Assembly: GCA_009700405.1 (NCBI GenBank)
Contig: WLMD01000003.1
Coordinates: 1 to 32,063 of the forward strand
Direction of reading: 5' to 3'
DNA from: Actinomycetota bacterium
GTDB lineage: Bacteria > Actinomycetota > Actinomycetes > Nanopelagicales > Nanopelagicaceae
DNA: 32,063 bases
Shown: positions 24,675-31,989 of the stretch, one piece after another
Numbering within the stretch: position 1 is the first letter of the stretch
Layout of the letters: the number at the start of each line of letters is the position of its first letter
Translations under genes and position numbers: made by a program
Notes under the pieces: generated by a model
Told to the model about the DNA's origin: nothing
Seen by the model: the letters and a program-made list of their open reading frames with translations, nothing else
The model's database searches: none

Positions 24675-24809
24675 ACTGTAGGTCAGGAACCGTTAAAACA
24701 TGAAAGTTCCTTGAGATCTGTCTTTGGATGCAGAGCGGATCCTAAAAACGTGCCTCAAAATAATCGGCGCGTCATCTATTTTTTCACTCTCATAAGTCAT
24801 GATTGGCGG

Positions 24810-26279
24810 ATGCGCAAATCCTTCGCACTTCTATTAGCCGCCACTGCAATCATTGGGCTGACCTTAGGGGTGGCTAACGCTGCGGCCCCTGTTGTAGGAA
24901 AAAAATGCTCCAAGGCAGGACTCAGTGCAAAAGTCGCTGGAGACAGATTTACTTGCACCAAATCAGGCAAGAAATTGATATGGAAGAAGGTTATTCCTGC
25001 AGTAGTTAAGGCAGTGCCTTCGCCTTCTCCTACTCAAACCATGGATCCTGCACCAATAATTGTTGCCCCATCTGCCCCTCCTGAGCCGACGCAAACCCCG
25101 AAACCTTCCATTTTCGCTAACCAGAGTGCATTAACTCGGTTCATTAGTCTTGCGCAAGCTGCACGTGCAAATGCAACGAACAAGTTACCCATTCTTGATA
25201 CCAGTGGCGCGGTAACTATCAATCAAGTTGCAGGCCAGGGCTTGCCGCTATTCGTTAAAGCTAGTACGACTGACCGTTTCACTTTTCTTGGGCCCACGCC
25301 GTTGGTTGAGACAGACCCAACTAGAACGGGGGCTGTATCTCAAATCACCAAGGACCATCGAATGGTCTACCAAGCCCGAGACGACCTTCCACCGTGGGCC
25401 GTTGCCTTTACTATTTCAACTACCGATTCGCTCGGGCGTTTTGTCGTGGAAACAAGCGGAATGAATGGCTCGAGGTTGCCGCAGTATTCATGGCGATTGG
25501 TTTACAAGACTTCAACGGGGCCATGGATGTACCAAAGTATTGCCGGACTTTCGCGTCCTAATGATGATGCACACCATTTTGACGAGGTGTCATTAGGCGC
25601 ACCTGGTTCTTTTTCGATCCGACTGGAATTTGAAGCAACGACTAGTTTCTATGGCATTGGGCTTTCGGATGTCACCTCCACTATCTCTACGCTAACTTCC
25701 AACGCATCTCCACGAGTAGCAATACTGGGAGACTCTTGGGTATCTCCGGAATTTAACGAAACTGGACCTGTCCACGTTTGGGACGCTTTTACGGGGGCTT
25801 TAACGTGGATAACTGGCTGGAATGTTATATCTGCAGGAGTCGCCGGACAGGGTTATTTACAACCAGCCCGGGGTGGAACTGAAACCTACAAGGATCGAGT
25901 AGTCCGAGATCTTGTTCCGCAGAATCCAGATGTGATTATATTTACCGGTTCTCCAAATGATCCTTGGGGTCCTGGCAAATTTACAGATGAACAAATTGCG
26001 GCTGAAATGGGGCGCGATATTAAACTAGTTCAGGAAGCAAATCCAGATATTCTTATTATTGTTTGTTCGCCGTTTCAAACAGACCCGCATCAAGCATCGT
26101 TGATGCGAAAGGAAGCGGCTTCACTGGGCGTATCAATTATTGACTTTGCAACCCCTGCGCTCTTTGATGAAAATAATAATGCGCAACGTCAATTAGTAGA
26201 TGGTCACCCAACCAGACTGGGTAGTGCCTATATTGCGAATGAGATGCTGAAAAGGATTGCGGGACTAAACTCGAAATGA
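24810..26279 (+). CDS. Secreted SGNH/GDSL-type hydrolase, paralogue A
   Basis: Preferred start MRKSFALLLAATAIIGLTLGVANAA (ORF track opens at 24711; an in-frame GTG also exists near 24750). Two-Cys module KKCSKAGLSAKVAGDRFTCTKSGKKLIWKK, Pro-rich linker, then VAILGDSWVSPEFNE, DVIIFTGSPNDP and DGHPTRLG motifs. Confidence 0.8.
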   Translation: MRKSFALLLAATAIIGLTLGVANAAAPVVGKKCSKAGLSAKVAGDRFTCTKSGKKLIWKKVIPAVVKAVPSPSPTQTMDPAPIIVAPSAPPEPTQTPKPSIFANQSALTRFISLAQAARANATNKLPILDTSGAVTINQVAGQGLPLFVKASTTDRFTFLGPTPLVETDPTRTGAVSQITKDHRMVYQARDDLPPWAVAFTISTTDSLGRFVVETSGMNGSRLPQYSWRLVYKTSTGPWMYQSIAGLSRPNDDAHHFDEVSLGAPGSFSIRLEFEATTSFYGIGLSDVTSTISTLTSNASPRVAILGDSWVSPEFNETGPVHVWDAFTGALTWITGWNVISAGVAGQGYLQPARGGTETYKDRVVRDLVPQNPDVIIFTGSPNDPWGPGKFTDEQIAAEMGRDIKLVQEANPDILIIVCSPFQTDPHQASLMRKEAASLGVSIIDFATPALFDENNNAQRQLVDGHPTRLGSAYIANEMLKRIAGLNSK

Positions 26280-26319
26280 ACAGATAAATCAAAGCCCGTC
26301 ATCCCAAGTTATTCGCTAA

Positions 26320-26431
26320 ATCTACGGAGAGGGAGATAGAAATACGCGAGGTCTCACTAGTTGCATGTCTCCTTTTACTTATCCGTCAGCGTGTTTTAAC
26401 TGTCTCTGGATCCCAGAAAAATGCCTCAAAA
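26320..26431 (+). pseudogene. Decayed leader hairpin plus signal-peptide-like gene start lacking an ATG
   Basis: ATCTACGGAGAGGGAGAT-agaa-ATA replaces ATCTACGGAGAGGTAGAT-N4-ATG seen at 28053 and 30345. The frame after ATA reads (I)REVSLVACLLLLIRQRVLTVSGSQKNASK then stop. Confidence 0.5.
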
Positions 26432-26480
26432 TAATCGGCGCGTCATCTATTTTTTCACTCTCATAAGTCATGATTGGCGG

Positions 26481-27953
26481 ATGCGCAAATCCTTTGCACT
26501 TCTATTAGCCGCCACTGTAATCATTGGGCTGACCTTAGGGGTGGCTAACGCTGCCGCCCCTGTTGTAGGAAAAAAATGCTCCAAGGCAGGACTCAGTGCA
26601 AAAGTCGCAGGAGACAGATTTACCTGCACCAAATCAGGCAAGAAATTGATATGGAAGAAGGTTATTCCTGCAGTAATTAAGGCAGCGCCTTCGCCTTCGC
26701 CTACTCAAACTATGGATCCTGCGGCAGCAACTGTTGCCCCATCTGCCCCATCTGCCCCATCTGCCCCTCCTGAGCCCACTCAAACTCCAGCAGTTGCAGA
26801 GATCATGACGCCAATTACCTTGTCATCATTTGTGAGTTTGGCGCAATCTGCAATGGCTAATTCTGAAAATGCAATACCAATATTGGATACAGCGAATACA
26901 GTTCAAGTTCTAGAAGTTAAGAAAAATGAACTTCCTAATTTTCTTTTCGCTGATACAGTCCAGAAATTTTCCTTTTTTGGGCCAACGCCGTTAGTGGAGA
27001 AAGATTCGAGTCGCCTCCATGGCCTTTCATTAGTGAGTGCAGATGGTCGTAAGGTGTATCAATCCGACAGTGCAATCCCACCCTGGGGTGTTGGTTTTGA
27101 TTTCACTTCGGATGATCCCAAGGGTCGATTTATTGTTGAGACAAGTGCAACAGATAACTCTGGTACCTATTCCTGGCGCCTTGCCTATAAATCGGCAACA
27201 GGACCGTGGAAATATCAAAGTGTTAATGGAATCTCCCATAAGAATGATAATGAAAAGTTCTTCGATGAAGTCACACTAGGAGAAGCAGGGAAATTTTCAA
27301 TACGACTCGAATTTGAAGCTAAGACAACTTTCTATGGCCTAGGTCTGGCCGATAAGGCTGCATCAGTTACACCGCTACTTAAATCTTCTGCAGTGCGAGT
27401 GTTAATTGTTGGAGATTCATGGGTATGGCCATCATTTAACGAGTCAGGTCCGGTTCATGTATGGGACGCATACCCTGGCGCTCTTTCTTGGCTCTCCGGT
27501 TGGAATGTAATTTCTGCCGGAGTACGTGGCCAAGGTTATTTATCAGTTGCTGCAGATGAAACATATAAGGACCGAGTTGTTCGAGATGTCATTCCGCAGC
27601 ACCCGGCCGTGGTTATCTTCACTGGTTCATCAAATGATCACTTATTCGCAGATCAACAAATTGCTGAGGAAATGGGTCGAGATATTCAAGCGCTGCAAAA
27701 AGCTGATCCAGGTGTTTTGATTATTGTTTGTTCGCCATATGCAACTGGTGGGGATCAAAAAGCCCCGGGGCAGAGTAAGGCAATGAAGGCTGAGGCAAAT
27801 CGCATTGGAGTCCCTTACATCGACTTTATTAATCTGCCGCTCTTTGATCAGAGCAATAATGGGCAAGGACAACTATCGCAGGGCCATCCCACAAGACTGG
27901 GAAGCTCTTATATTGCACGTGCGCTACTCAAGGAACTTGCAGCTGTTAAGTAA
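26481..27953 (+). CDS. Secreted SGNH/GDSL-type hydrolase, paralogue B
   Basis: Preferred start MRKSFALLLAATVIIGLTLGVANAA (ORF track opens at ATG 26421). Same N-terminal module as paralogue A; VLIVGDSWVWPSFNESGPVHVWDAYPGALSWLSGWNVISAGVRGQGYL, AVVIFTGSSNDH, QGHPTRLGSSYIA. Confidence 0.8.
   Translation: MRKSFALLLAATVIIGLTLGVANAAAPVVGKKCSKAGLSAKVAGDRFTCTKSGKKLIWKKVIPAVIKAAPSPSPTQTMDPAAATVAPSAPSAPSAPPEPTQTPAVAEIMTPITLSSFVSLAQSAMANSENAIPILDTANTVQVLEVKKNELPNFLFADTVQKFSFFGPTPLVEKDSSRLHGLSLVSADGRKVYQSDSAIPPWGVGFDFTSDDPKGRFIVETSATDNSGTYSWRLAYKSATGPWKYQSVNGISHKNDNEKFFDEVTLGEAGKFSIRLEFEAKTTFYGLGLADKAASVTPLLKSSAVRVLIVGDSWVWPSFNESGPVHVWDAYPGALSWLSGWNVISAGVRGQGYLSVAADETYKDRVVRDVIPQHPAVVIFTGSSNDHLFADQQIAEEMGRDIQALQKADPGVLIIVCSPYATGGDQKAPGQSKAMKAEANRIGVPYIDFINLPLFDQSNNGQGQLSQGHPTRLGSSYIARALLKELAAVK
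26735..26767 (+). repeat. In-frame 9-bp tandem repeat (CCATCTGCC-type), about 3 units, encoding APSAPSAPSAP linker
   Basis: gccccatctgccccatctgccccatctgcccc in paralogue B; paralogue A has one unit at the same position (25065-25080). Confidence 0.85.
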
Positions 27954-28032
27954 ATGGAATCGAAAGGTTTGCGCAATTTATGGCCGTAGTTGCGCGCATT
28001 TGGTGATTTCAAGTTACTGTCCTCCTAGGGAA

Positions 28033-28070
28033 ATCCCGTCACGGGATACTGAATCTACGGAGAGGTAGAT
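28033..28070 (+). promoter_or_regulatory. Two-hairpin 5' leader with SD in loop of second hairpin
   Basis: Hairpin 1 ATCCCG-TCA-CGGGAT (28033-28047); hairpin 2 ATCTAC-GGAGAG-GTAGAT (28053-28070); ATG at 28075. Confidence 0.7.
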
Positions 28071-28074
28071 TTCG

Positions 28075-30264
28075 ATGCGCAAGTTTTCAATTTTTCTTTC
28101 ACTTTTACTGATTGCATCAGCGACCGCAGTAACTCAAGCTAGCTCCGCCTCAACGGTACAGATTTCCTTTGTGATGATGAATCCGCAGACTAAAGCCAAC
28201 GTAGGTTCTGGAATTCAGGTTTCCATCTATCCAGTTAACCATCCTCAGCAGCGCACAAATACAACAACAGATTCGAATGGAGTTGTATCTTTTGCACTGA
28301 ACCAAGAACGATACGGACTCGACTGGTATTGCGGTCCTTGCAACGCACCTGCTAGAACGAATGGTGCTACCGCATATTTGCTTCAACCCAAAAGTGATGG
28401 AACGTTTGAAGTACTCTCCATGGCAGATGAACCGGTTGCTCAAAACTCTGCAGGCGTATGGATCCTAACTACTGAAATACAAAAACCAGCGAAGAGTAAT
28501 TCGCCATGGAAACTTATGAGCCCACAGCCAGATCTTGGCGGAAGTGCGCGCTTGATGTTTTTGCTGACAAATGGAAAAGTCATGGTTCAAGTTTCTAATG
28601 GAGGTGTCGAGAGTCGCCAAAAATGGTGGCTACTAACTCCGGATATAAATGGTAATTACGACACAGGTACTTGGGAGCAAGCTCCAAGTCCAAAGGATTA
28701 CAACCCAACAACATACAGCGGGGCGGTCTTGCATGATGGCAATCTCATGGTTTTTGGAGGAGAGCAAAACGCCACTGATGCTGGAGTTGTCACGAATGGC
28801 ACAAATATTTGCCAAATCTATAATGTAGAAACTAACTCTTGGAGACTAATTGCACCTCCTAACAATGGCCAAGGTGACTGGAAGGCACTCATGGGTCCCA
28901 ACACCACTTTGGCTGATGGGCGCATATTAATTGGCGCGTCACCAGATGGCTCCAATGCGAATGAATCTATGTTGTATGACCCAATAACAAATAGTTGGGC
29001 GCTTACAGGAACAAACAAAGTGGCAGAGAATAACGAAGCTGGGTTCACGCTACTTCAAAACAATAAAGTTCTTACAACTCAACAACCGACCGGCACTTTA
29101 GGTACTGGAACGACTATCGCTGAAATATACGACCCTGCAACAGGGCTATGGTCATCGGCTGGAGAAACCAACGCTCTATTTAACTTCGTTGAAGTCGGAC
29201 CAGCCCTTGGCCTGCGAAATGGGAATGTACTTCAAACTGGTGCGCTTGGCGCGAATGGCCTATACAACCCAACAACTAATTCGTGGTCTGTCGTTCCTCC
29301 GTTCGCAAAGTTGAAGAATGGTTTACAACTCGTTGCTCAGGACAATGAGGCTGCGATTCTTCCAAATGGAAATATTCTTACCATTACTGCCACCTATATT
29401 CATGCCACCATTTCTGGCAACGGTATAGCTCCGGGCCGCTCGATGGCCCCTGCAAGATATGAAGAGTACGACTGGAGAACAAATTCTTGGATAGATTTGC
29501 CAGATAGTTTGTTGTCTGTCCCATCCTGGGGCGGCCCTAACATGACGTTTTTCCTGCCCTTGCCTAATGGTCAAATAATGATTGAGGAACGCGGCGGGAT
29601 TCAATTCTTTACCGGTACCGGATCTCCAGAAGCAAGTTGGGCTCCAGTCGTTTCCTCCGTTTCATCGCTGGATCTTGCACCAAAGACTCAATACACGATC
29701 TCGGGTAAGCAACTTTCTGGCTTAACGCAAGGTCTACATTGGGGGGATGAGTGGCAAGCGACCACTAATTACCCGCTTGTTCGTATCGTGAACAATGCAT
29801 CTCATCATGTCTTTTATGCAACTACTTCTGGCATAAGTAGTACATCCATTACTCCGATGGTGCCATCAACATTTAATATGACCATTGGATCAGATGTTGA
29901 GAATGGCCCTTCAAAGCTATATGTAGTTGCAACTGGAATCGCATCCCTACCAACTGATATCACGATTTCTGGTGGATCCAACAAGATCGCTGAGGAGAAA
30001 GCAGCAACTGAGTTGAAAGCCAAGCAAGAGTCCGATGCTAAGGCTGCAGCTGAGTTGAAAGCGAAAAAGGATGCCGAGGCTAAAGCAGCCGCTGACAAAG
30101 CTGCAAAGGAGAAAGTGGCAGCCGATGCACTTGCACAGCAAAAACCGACCGCAGTATCTAAGCCACTTGCAAAGAAAAAAGTTATTACGTGCATGAAAGG
30201 CAATCTCACAAAGAAGGTTTCTGCGATTAAGCCAGTCTGTCCGAAGGGATTTAAGAAGAAGTAG
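28075..30264 (+). CDS. Secreted kelch / galactose-oxidase-like beta-propeller protein with C-terminal Ala/Lys/Glu stalk and Cys-Lys motif
   Basis: 729 aa; signal peptide MRKFSIFLSLLLIASATAVTQASSAS; repeated kelch-like blades (GTWEQAPSPKDYNPTTYSGAVLHDGNLMVFGGEQ, IYNVETNSWRLIAPP, LYDPITNSWALTG, IYDPATGLWSSAGE, LYNPTTNSWSVVPP); C-terminal NYPLVRIVNNASHHVFYATT as in galactose-oxidase C-terminal domains; tail KKKVITCMKGNLTKKVSAIKPVCPKGFKKK. Confidence 0.8.
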   Translation: MRKFSIFLSLLLIASATAVTQASSASTVQISFVMMNPQTKANVGSGIQVSIYPVNHPQQRTNTTTDSNGVVSFALNQERYGLDWYCGPCNAPARTNGATAYLLQPKSDGTFEVLSMADEPVAQNSAGVWILTTEIQKPAKSNSPWKLMSPQPDLGGSARLMFLLTNGKVMVQVSNGGVESRQKWWLLTPDINGNYDTGTWEQAPSPKDYNPTTYSGAVLHDGNLMVFGGEQNATDAGVVTNGTNICQIYNVETNSWRLIAPPNNGQGDWKALMGPNTTLADGRILIGASPDGSNANESMLYDPITNSWALTGTNKVAENNEAGFTLLQNNKVLTTQQPTGTLGTGTTIAEIYDPATGLWSSAGETNALFNFVEVGPALGLRNGNVLQTGALGANGLYNPTTNSWSVVPPFAKLKNGLQLVAQDNEAAILPNGNILTITATYIHATISGNGIAPGRSMAPARYEEYDWRTNSWIDLPDSLLSVPSWGGPNMTFFLPLPNGQIMIEERGGIQFFTGTGSPEASWAPVVSSVSSLDLAPKTQYTISGKQLSGLTQGLHWGDEWQATTNYPLVRIVNNASHHVFYATTSGISSTSITPMVPSTFNMTIGSDVENGPSKLYVVATGIASLPTDITISGGSNKIAEEKAATELKAKQESDAKAAAELKAKKDAEAKAAADKAAKEKVAADALAQQKPTAVSKPLAKKKVITCMKGNLTKKVSAIKPVCPKGFKKK

Positions 30265-30324
30265 AACCTGACAGGACGAGCCAGATTCGAACTTAAGTAG
30301 ACGGAACCATGATTGGGCTAGTCA

Positions 30325-30362
30325 CCTCAAATCCTTGAGGCATTATCTACGGAGAGGTAGAT
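30325..30362 (+). promoter_or_regulatory. Two-hairpin 5' leader with SD in loop of second hairpin
   Basis: Hairpin 1 CCTCAA-ATCC-TTGAGG (30325-30340); hairpin 2 ATCTAC-GGAGAG-GTAGAT (30345-30362); ATG at 30367. Confidence 0.7.
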
Positions 30363-30366
30363 TGGA

Positions 30367-31875
30367 ATGCGCCACAGAGTAGGTCTATTAAATGTTTTAA
30401 TCCTTACGTTGGTAATGGCGCTTATTCCAACCTCAGCCTTAGCCGCTTACATGGCAAAACCAGCTGTTTACTATCATGCAAAGAACACTATTGATGCCCG
30501 GATGGTCTCAGAAGCCGGCTATGGGTGTGCTAATCCAACTAAGACCAAAGCAACTCTTCAGGCGTTCGTTGGGAAAAAATGGCTCAACATCAAACCAATC
30601 CGATCAGGCTGGATTCCTGATAAGGAATCATGTGGAGATTCTTCTTTTGGTAGCAAAACATCGCGGGCGTGGATCACGGCATATATTGATCCGGGCACAA
30701 TTGTTCGATGGTATTACGTAGGTGAAATTAGTATTCAAGACCATGACTCTAAGGGAAATGGCATTGGCGTTGCTTATACATTTAGCAACGCTTACCAAAA
30801 TATAGTGCCACACTCAGTTGTTGGTGGATATGGAATTACTTGGGAAAACGTCTCATCCAGAATAAATGACATTGCTGCAGCATCATGGACGGATGCGCAA
30901 GCAACCATTCTGCGCAACGCAAATTTACCGAGTGCATTGTCTGGGTATAAGTCGTATATAAGTCCAGGGGCGCTGCTAGTTGACCCGAATGTTGGTGAAG
31001 CTGATAGGTATTTGAAAAGAACCTTTTCGTTATTCGCAAGAATCCCATCTCCAAGGAGCATTATTTTTGTAGCAACGACTCAGGAAGAAAGAGTTGCATC
31101 AGAGTTACAAATCGACACCATGTACAAGGACAGCGGGTGGATAAAGGGTGCGTTAGACGACATATTTGGAATAAATACGAGCCAACCAGCTGGTTCTGTT
31201 TTCACTCAAATCAAATGTGATGGGCACGATCATGCTAGGAGCCGTTCCACTTACCCTGATGGATCAATAGCCACTGCGTTGATGTTTAGTGTTTGCCCAA
31301 ATATGGAGCAATTTCGAACCCATATCAATGGTGTGCATACGATGGCTCACGAATATGTGCACTCTATTCAAGTAGCAGTGCTCACCAACACCCTTGACCG
31401 AAAGAGGTTTGAACCCTGCTGGTTGAGAGAGGGTGGGCCAGAGTGGACCCAGGCAGTTGTTTCAGATAATTTCCAGCAGTATCTATCTGTCAAACATCTA
31501 GAGCCATACTATTTAAGTACTGACTCTGTTCAAAGAACACAAACCACGGCCAGAACTTGGACCAAGGATGAAGTTGATGGCTATTTAAACCGAGCTAACG
31601 ACCCAACCACTTGTTCGGCAACCAGTGAATTTGCTCTTGCATACTCTTTGGGTGAGGTAGCTACTGAAACTTTAGTAAGTATCGGTGGCTCAGAATCCTT
31701 CTTTGCTCTGCAAGAACGTCTTGCATTAGGTGAAAGTTCCAACCAAGCCTTTCGTGAAATATATGGCAAATCGTGGGATGAGGTTCGACCAATACTTGCC
31801 GAAGTTGTAGCTCAAGTAATTACTCTCTCGTGGCAATCACAGGCTTTGACCTATCAAAGTCTGCCAAAAAACTGA
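30367..31875 (+). CDS. Secreted metallopeptidase-like protein (HExxH + downstream E, gluzincin/peptidase MA-like)
   Basis: 502 aa; signal peptide MRHRVGLLNVLILTLVMALIPTSALAA; HEYVH at 31348-31362 and WLREGGPEW at 31420-31446, matching the HExxH...E architecture. Confidence 0.7.
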   Translation: MRHRVGLLNVLILTLVMALIPTSALAAYMAKPAVYYHAKNTIDARMVSEAGYGCANPTKTKATLQAFVGKKWLNIKPIRSGWIPDKESCGDSSFGSKTSRAWITAYIDPGTIVRWYYVGEISIQDHDSKGNGIGVAYTFSNAYQNIVPHSVVGGYGITWENVSSRINDIAAASWTDAQATILRNANLPSALSGYKSYISPGALLVDPNVGEADRYLKRTFSLFARIPSPRSIIFVATTQEERVASELQIDTMYKDSGWIKGALDDIFGINTSQPAGSVFTQIKCDGHDHARSRSTYPDGSIATALMFSVCPNMEQFRTHINGVHTMAHEYVHSIQVAVLTNTLDRKRFEPCWLREGGPEWTQAVVSDNFQQYLSVKHLEPYYLSTDSVQRTQTTARTWTKDEVDGYLNRANDPTTCSATSEFALAYSLGEVATETLVSIGGSESFFALQERLALGESSNQAFREIYGKSWDEVRPILAEVVAQVITLSWQSQALTYQSLPKN

Positions 31876-31915
31876 TTCCTCATGAAATTTGCTGGGCTTC
31901 ACACACATCCTTAAG

Positions 31916-31989
31916 TGGGGCGAGTCGGGCTCGAACCGACGACGACAGAATTATGAGTTCTGGGCTCTAACCAACTGAGCTACCGCCCC
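31916..31989 (-). tRNA. tRNA-Met (CAT anticodon; probably elongator, tRNA-Ile2 not excluded)
   Basis: Reverse complement GGGGCGGTAGCTCAGTTGGTTAGAGCCCAGAACTCATAATTCTGTCGTCGTCGGTTCGAGCCCGACTCGCCCCA. Folds to 7-bp acceptor (one G-U), GCTC/GAGC D-stem, CAGAA/TTCTG anticodon stem with CTCATAA loop, GTCGG/CCGAC T-stem. G1-C72 argues against initiator; CCA not encoded. Confidence 0.95.

Follow-up and report, generated by a model that had tools for sequence, protein, structure and literature searches.

A candidate RNA element of translation initiation: an 18-nucleotide palindromic leader before actinobacterial genes for putative secreted proteins

Described RNA sites and the leader

Several described systems come close to the element reported here. 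Binding sites for CsrA/RsmA/RsmE follow the SELEX consensus RUACARGGAUGU and have a six-nucleotide loop (PMC7652899). The sites of phage T4 RegB contain GGAG within Shine-Dalgarno regions, with the strong-site consensus GGAGRAYARAA and an A-rich 3' side, and translational operators such as that of T4 gene 43 are short hairpins near the initiation codon that are recognised by a protein (PMC3014915). At the level of gene content, the excerpted account of replacement flexible genomic islands in aquatic microbes describes genes for exposed proteins that are swapped at a fixed position, with homologous recombination under phage pressure as the proposed route (PMC4033161).

The window, by which we mean the whole stretch of 32,063 nucleotides analysed, comes most likely from the freshwater actinobacterial family Ca. 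Nanopelagicaceae. Close to its end two genes are each preceded by the same 18-mer, ATCTACGGAGAGGTAGAT, and in both cases an ATGCGC start follows after 4 nt. The features are:

26320-26337, plus strand: decayed third copy of the leader, T14 changed to G; next come ATACGC and the remnant of a signal peptide
28033-28047, plus strand: inverted repeat ATCCCG-TCA-CGGGAT, ending 5 nt before the first exact copy; not universal
28053-28070, plus strand: first exact copy of the leader (ATCTAC-GGAGAG-GTAGAT), with ATG at 28075, 4 nt on
28075-30264, plus strand: Kelch-repeat protein gene with signal-peptide-like N-terminus MRKFSIFLSLLLIASATAVTQASSAS, Pfam Kelch_6 at 4.6e-16
30325-30340, plus strand: inverted repeat CCTCAA-ATCC-TTGAGG, ending 4 nt before the second exact copy; not universal
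30345-30362, plus strand: second exact copy of the leader, with ATG at 30367, 4 nt on
30367-31875, plus strand: HExxH (HTMAHEYVHS) peptidase-like gene with signal-peptide-like N-terminus, no Pfam match

When folded, the leader resembles CsrA sites in presenting GGA in a six-nucleotide loop with AC/GU closing pairs, at or beside the Shine-Dalgarno sequence, but its GGA lies at loop positions 1-3 rather than at the 3-5 of the CsrA consensus (PMC7652899), and its stem is 6 bp long and invariant in sequence. CsrA is rejected as the binding partner, being absent from the carrier genomes tested: a search that recovered its positive controls returned no CsrA-family protein in any of the 13. A protein-binding site of CsrA type, one form that the protein-binding hairpin of the original prediction might take, is therefore excluded as far as CsrA itself is concerned, and at most the leader may work in a way analogous to a CsrA site. 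A 60-genome sample of the family contained a single CsrA gene (G013:C2:892169-892452), in a genome that does not carry the leader. A relative of the 18-mer with two mismatches lies about 100 nt from that gene, apparently within a coding region on the opposite strand, and is taken as coincidence.

With RegB sites the leader shares an unpaired GGA, a partly constrained fourth G and a place in the translation initiation region, whereas RegB sites have an A-rich 3' side and no palindrome (PMC3014915). It is like the translational operators in being a short potential hairpin near the initiation codon, but each of those operators serves one autoregulated gene, while the leader stands before many unrelated genes for putative secreted proteins. 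It also recalls the replacement flexible genomic islands, where genes for exposed proteins are likewise exchanged at a fixed position; the excerpted account of these mentions no invariant leader at the start codon (PMC4033161), and in the present loci it is at the translation start that shared and exchanged sequence meet. No match to the leader was found in Rfam, where the whole window gave only a tRNA at gathering score and 26200-30500 gave no relevant match at E up to 5, so a known Rfam cis-regulatory family is rejected. A literature search for the 18-mer string found it in no paper of the library covered.

Copies, spacing and the edges of conservation

Sequence matching confirmed the observation from which the work began, that identical 18-mers at 28053-28070 and 30345-30362 stand 4 nt before ATGCGC. 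The accompanying statement that no other intact copy was seen holds for exact copies throughout the assembly (85% complete), but it had missed the one-mismatch relic at 26320, which brings the copies in this genome to three in all. Matches with up to three mismatches number three in the window, against a mean of 0.01 in dinucleotide shuffles. The relic reads ATCTACGGAGAGGGAGAT and continues agaaATACGC, so that the start codon is destroyed and one stem pair broken. It is a relic of a leader and signal-peptide start, as judged from sequence, because together with the next 43 nt it shares 89% identity, over 64 nt, with the region in the relative G017 where a leader runs into the signal-peptide start of its gene.

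The family set comprised 296 genomes (an order-level set proved to be the same 296), and was searched for the 18-mer with up to one mismatch while the downstream sequence was left free. Twenty places were found: 17 exact copies, one apparently functional one-mismatch copy (G226) and two relics, the one at 26320 in the window and one in G123:C30 that lies behind a tRNA-Asn gene and ahead of a broken reading frame. A reversed-pattern control gave one match over the whole set. The exact copies occur in 12 of the 296 genomes and in four genera. After each of the 17 a start codon follows at a distance of exactly 4 nt (14 ATG, three TTG), although the G023 copy leads into a truncated reading frame. 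Nearly all precede genes with a signal-peptide-like N-terminus, signal peptides having been called by eye and with a hydropathy script. The wider taxonomic test was a scan of one genome per species across 85,462 GTDB species, with 2-8 nt allowed between 18-mer and ATG; it returned 12 matches, every one with a spacing of 4 and every one in an uncultured actinobacterial metagenome-assembled genome, and their positions identify them as family copies already counted. Such genomes are incomplete, and many copies are found close to tRNA genes or where a contig ends; at contig ends the assembly may be faulty.

With 17 copies at constant spacing and diverged flanks, there is strong support for a shared element where translation of exported-protein genes begins, whereas the word "regulon" was too strong for one to three copies per carrier and an exact copy in 12 of 296 genomes. 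Chance origin is rejected on the shuffles, the recurrence in the family and GTDB-wide, the fixed spacing and a k-mer survey that took in 1,877 start regions. In that survey the 18-mer was the sole block to recur across seven dissimilar contexts, a result that speaks for specificity and not for frequency, since the loci had been collected in a way that favoured the motif. Matches with three mismatches inside coding regions (G052/G053, G140, G170, G002:C11, G014 and G248) were read and dismissed as chance. Viral origin is rejected as well, since the inner 14-mer occurs in 66 viral contigs and the full 18-mer in none, which marks the shorter matches as background.

Identity inside the 18-mer is true by construction for copies selected as exact, and the informative comparison is with their flanks. 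Mean pairwise identity among the 17 is 0.40 over the 40 nt upstream and 0.44 across the 4-nt spacer; it rises to 78% over codons 1-3, which encode the MRK that opens the signal peptide, and drops to 0.39 over codons 4-20. As flank identity averages just 39-44%, conservation stops sharply at the ends of the palindrome, yet the T at position 19 is nearly constant too. Among homologues of the two window proteins that were gathered blind to the motif, the start region has the block without a single mismatch, at spacing 4, or else differs from it at five or more positions.

The arms ATCTAC and GTAGAT are perfect reverse complements, and such complementarity between the terminal six and six bases has a chance of about 2.5e-4 for a given 18-mer. 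The predicted fold of the 18-mer alone agrees with the stem first proposed, 6 bp displaying a six-nucleotide GGAGAG loop, with an energy of -10.3 kcal/mol at 10 °C, -8.6 at 20 °C and -5.6 at 37 °C. As regards the thermosensor among the roles first suggested, GGAG is predicted to stay in the loop at all three temperatures. The stem does not extend into the flanks, where potential pairs next to the palindrome do no better than those of shuffled sequence. A covariance-model search separated the exact class at 42-52 bits from a few diverged forms at 29-41 bits, the relic included, followed by background; the one-mismatch G226 copy scored 50 bits. The original prediction named as refuting it a search that finds only these copies, with no covariation in homologues. 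The first half did not come about, as there are 17 exact copies in 12 genomes. The second half did: in the covariance-model search no compensated stem variant appeared, the stem is invariant in the exact copies, and the real variants break stem pairs (G226 by T14C, G166 with AACTACGGAGAGATAGAA, G286/G285 with ATCTGCAGA[G/A]AGGTTGAT). Because homologues have either a perfect block or none, and compensated stem variants are missing, the hairpin is put forward as a hypothesis from symmetry.

Genes behind the leader and their exchange

The genes that carry the leader are diverse. They include Kelch-repeat proteins, HExxH peptidase-like proteins and others outside Pfam families, as well as a surface-type protein of 1593 aa that contains DUF285, cadherin-like and TIG domains, and a G017 gene whose start resembles the GDSL proteins of the window. 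Of the two kinds first named from the window, kelch-like was borne out by Pfam, and the HExxH protein has its motif with no Pfam match. The genes are patchy between genomes and some are nearly identical between genera: the window kelch gene shares 90% protein identity with its counterpart in G233, across genera. Several lie near tRNA genes or contig ends. In the window a minus-strand tRNA-Met gene (31915-31989) is found just past the peptidase gene, near the contig end. The Kelch-repeat protein ends in an ITCxKG...CPxGxKKK motif, which in the longer form ITCxKGxxTKKVxxxxPxCPxGxKKK (window 30187-30261) recurs in about 30 genomes of the family. It is found there on a wide variety of secreted proteins, most of which lack the 18-mer, and looks like a common sorting or anchoring tail.

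Different genes can follow near-identical leaders. Genomes G123 and G131 (loci L123 and L124) share 99% identity in the 80 nt upstream and fall to 55%, the background level, past codon 3, the genes behind the leader being unrelated; the same pattern is seen for L120 (G023) against L123/L124 and for L123 against L132 (G002). Window copy 2 and G017:C24 have leader regions that are 86% identical, with the peptidase gene behind one and a kelch gene behind the other. Because of these swaps the leader and its upstream region appear to behave as an exchangeable 5' module for different genes. Where the G123 gene has homologues elsewhere, at 41-46% identity, the leaders are different ones that lack the 18-mer; at L244, L245, L246, L248 and L254 another short block, GGAAAATTCYAGGAGTTTTRG or similar, stands before the starts.

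At 24711-27953 the window holds a tandem pair of GDSL/SGNH-hydrolase genes whose 5' ends are nearly the same (...CCTCAAAATAATCGG...MRKSFALLLAAT). The second of them lies directly behind the leader and signal-peptide relic; it looks as if the GDSL duplication had replaced an original 5' module that G017 still has. At one kind of tRNA-Asn site, a genome shows an intact leader and gene (L122 in G117:C34) and another a decayed leader and broken gene (L208 in G123:C30), and from this pattern the site is apparently an island in turnover.

The exchange raises the first alternative, that the 18-mer is the constant end of the exchangeable 5' module, kept as an anchor for homologous or site-specific recombination and not as a regulatory site. 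The shared upstream regions before unrelated genes, the leader region common to window copy 2 and G017:C24, the relic ahead of the tandem-duplicated GDSL gene, and the many copies at contig ends or near tRNA genes all fit such an anchor. However, reading of the neighbouring open reading frames revealed no evident integrase or transposase, and in the swapped pairs homology spans the 18-mer, the spacer and the first codons, so that crossovers are placed no more finely than the shared stretch and not in the 18-mer itself. Eighteen base pairs are short for RecA, and an anchor gives no reason for a fixed distance to the start codon or for a Shine-Dalgarno sequence. We regard it as unlikely, though it is the strongest of the alternatives.

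Translation initiation as the probable level of action

The Shine-Dalgarno region within the leader, GGAGAGGTAGAT, can pair with an ordinary 16S tail. The 16S 3' tail of two relatives is canonical (GGATCACCTCCTTTCT), and the end of the window genome's own 16S gene was not found; computed with the relatives' tail, the best duplex with the leader reaches about -10.9 kcal/mol against -13.5 for consensus GGAGG. The leader thus shows complementarity to the 16S tail at a suitable distance from the start codon. The start-codon distance is fixed despite a random spacer, which ties the 18-mer to translation initiation, and the invariant orientation and central Shine-Dalgarno sequence likewise favour this level of action. 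In G166 the diverged copy lies 11 nt past the stop codon of the gene before it, within a closely packed run of genes on one strand; this would be an intra-operon position for a ribosome-binding site, where a promoter operator would be unusual.

These data bear directly on a second alternative, in which the palindrome is a DNA operator for a dimeric transcription factor, of 6-6-6 layout, overlapping the transcription start and the ribosome site. Perfect two-fold symmetry at the edges of conservation is what an operator might show, and an exact copy about 41-43 nt behind an upstream gene leaves room for a promoter just upstream. A promoter scan of the plus strand just upstream of both window copies, too crude to carry weight, gave no sigma-70-like site. 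An operator does not account for the invariance of the central six bases and of orientation with the Shine-Dalgarno sequence inside, for the 4 nt to the start codon in 17 of 17 copies despite a random spacer, or for the diverged copy so close behind an upstream stop codon, and we hold it to be improbable. It is highly improbable that related genes have simply inherited a good Shine-Dalgarno site whose palindrome is accidental: GGAG and GAGG at workable distances, adequate anti-Shine-Dalgarno pairing and partly related signal-peptide starts agree with it, but the ATCTAC arm is not needed and is as invariant as the Shine-Dalgarno sequence while spacer and codons stand at about 40% identity, and consensus GGAGG pairs better.

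The account that we think probable, with some reserve, is that in this freshwater family the 18-mer acts in cis, as an RNA element placed where translation of flexible secreted-protein genes is initiated. The Shine-Dalgarno region would be combined with a symmetric 6-bp stem in one 18-mer, the stem presenting GGAGAG in the loop and occupying the GTAGAT half. As part of the ribosome-pairing surface would then lie in the stem, hairpin folding and 30S binding should compete, judging from the calculated energies. A common trans-acting factor, either a protein or an sRNA but not CsrA, would probably read the whole invariant block and set the expression of the leader-bearing genes. Formation of the hairpin in the cell, the existence of this factor and the direction of its control are what we infer. 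We count against this account that one to three copies per genome are few for a dedicated regulator, and that covariation is lacking, variants break pairs and the stem has no flank extension. On our best reading of the sequence, the leader would be a previously undescribed translational-control or ribosome-binding element of a kind, the cis-acting translational leader, that is already known.

A bolder form of the same idea is possible but tentative: an undescribed family-wide RNA-binding regulator or sRNA might read a hairpin that presents the Shine-Dalgarno sequence and travels with exchangeable secreted-protein genes, such that any gene landing behind the leader would come under the same translational control. 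If true, the leader would serve a hypervariable secretome as a plug-in expression module. This group of freshwater actinobacteria is abundant and has streamlined members, and to our knowledge hardly anything has been established about how their exposed proteins are controlled. An 18-nt block that is letter-perfect in at least four genera amid changed surroundings and swapped genes is hard to explain without a dedicated partner, and, being short and testable, it offers a way to search for that partner and to predict which island genes are expressed together.

Two minor observations concern neighbouring structures. A sequence-variable inverted repeat ends about 3-5 nt before many copies (window, L120, L122, L123, L124, L128 and L134), with arms that vary between ATCCCG/CGGGAT, CCTCAA/TTGAGG and ACCCTT/AAGGGT. 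It is attractive at both exact window copies, in the group with CCTCAA...TTGAGG and in the pair with ACCCTT...AAGGGT. As an obligatory second hairpin it is rejected, for it is absent in several copies, few lineages are independent and about 14% of random positions score equally; a second, covarying hairpin is possible, as a lead only. A kelch homologue without the 18-mer (L164, G017:C48) has TGAG-GAGAGGCAGT-CTCA directly before its ATG, a different stem with GAGAGG again in the loop, which could be an analogous or highly diverged form of the leader.
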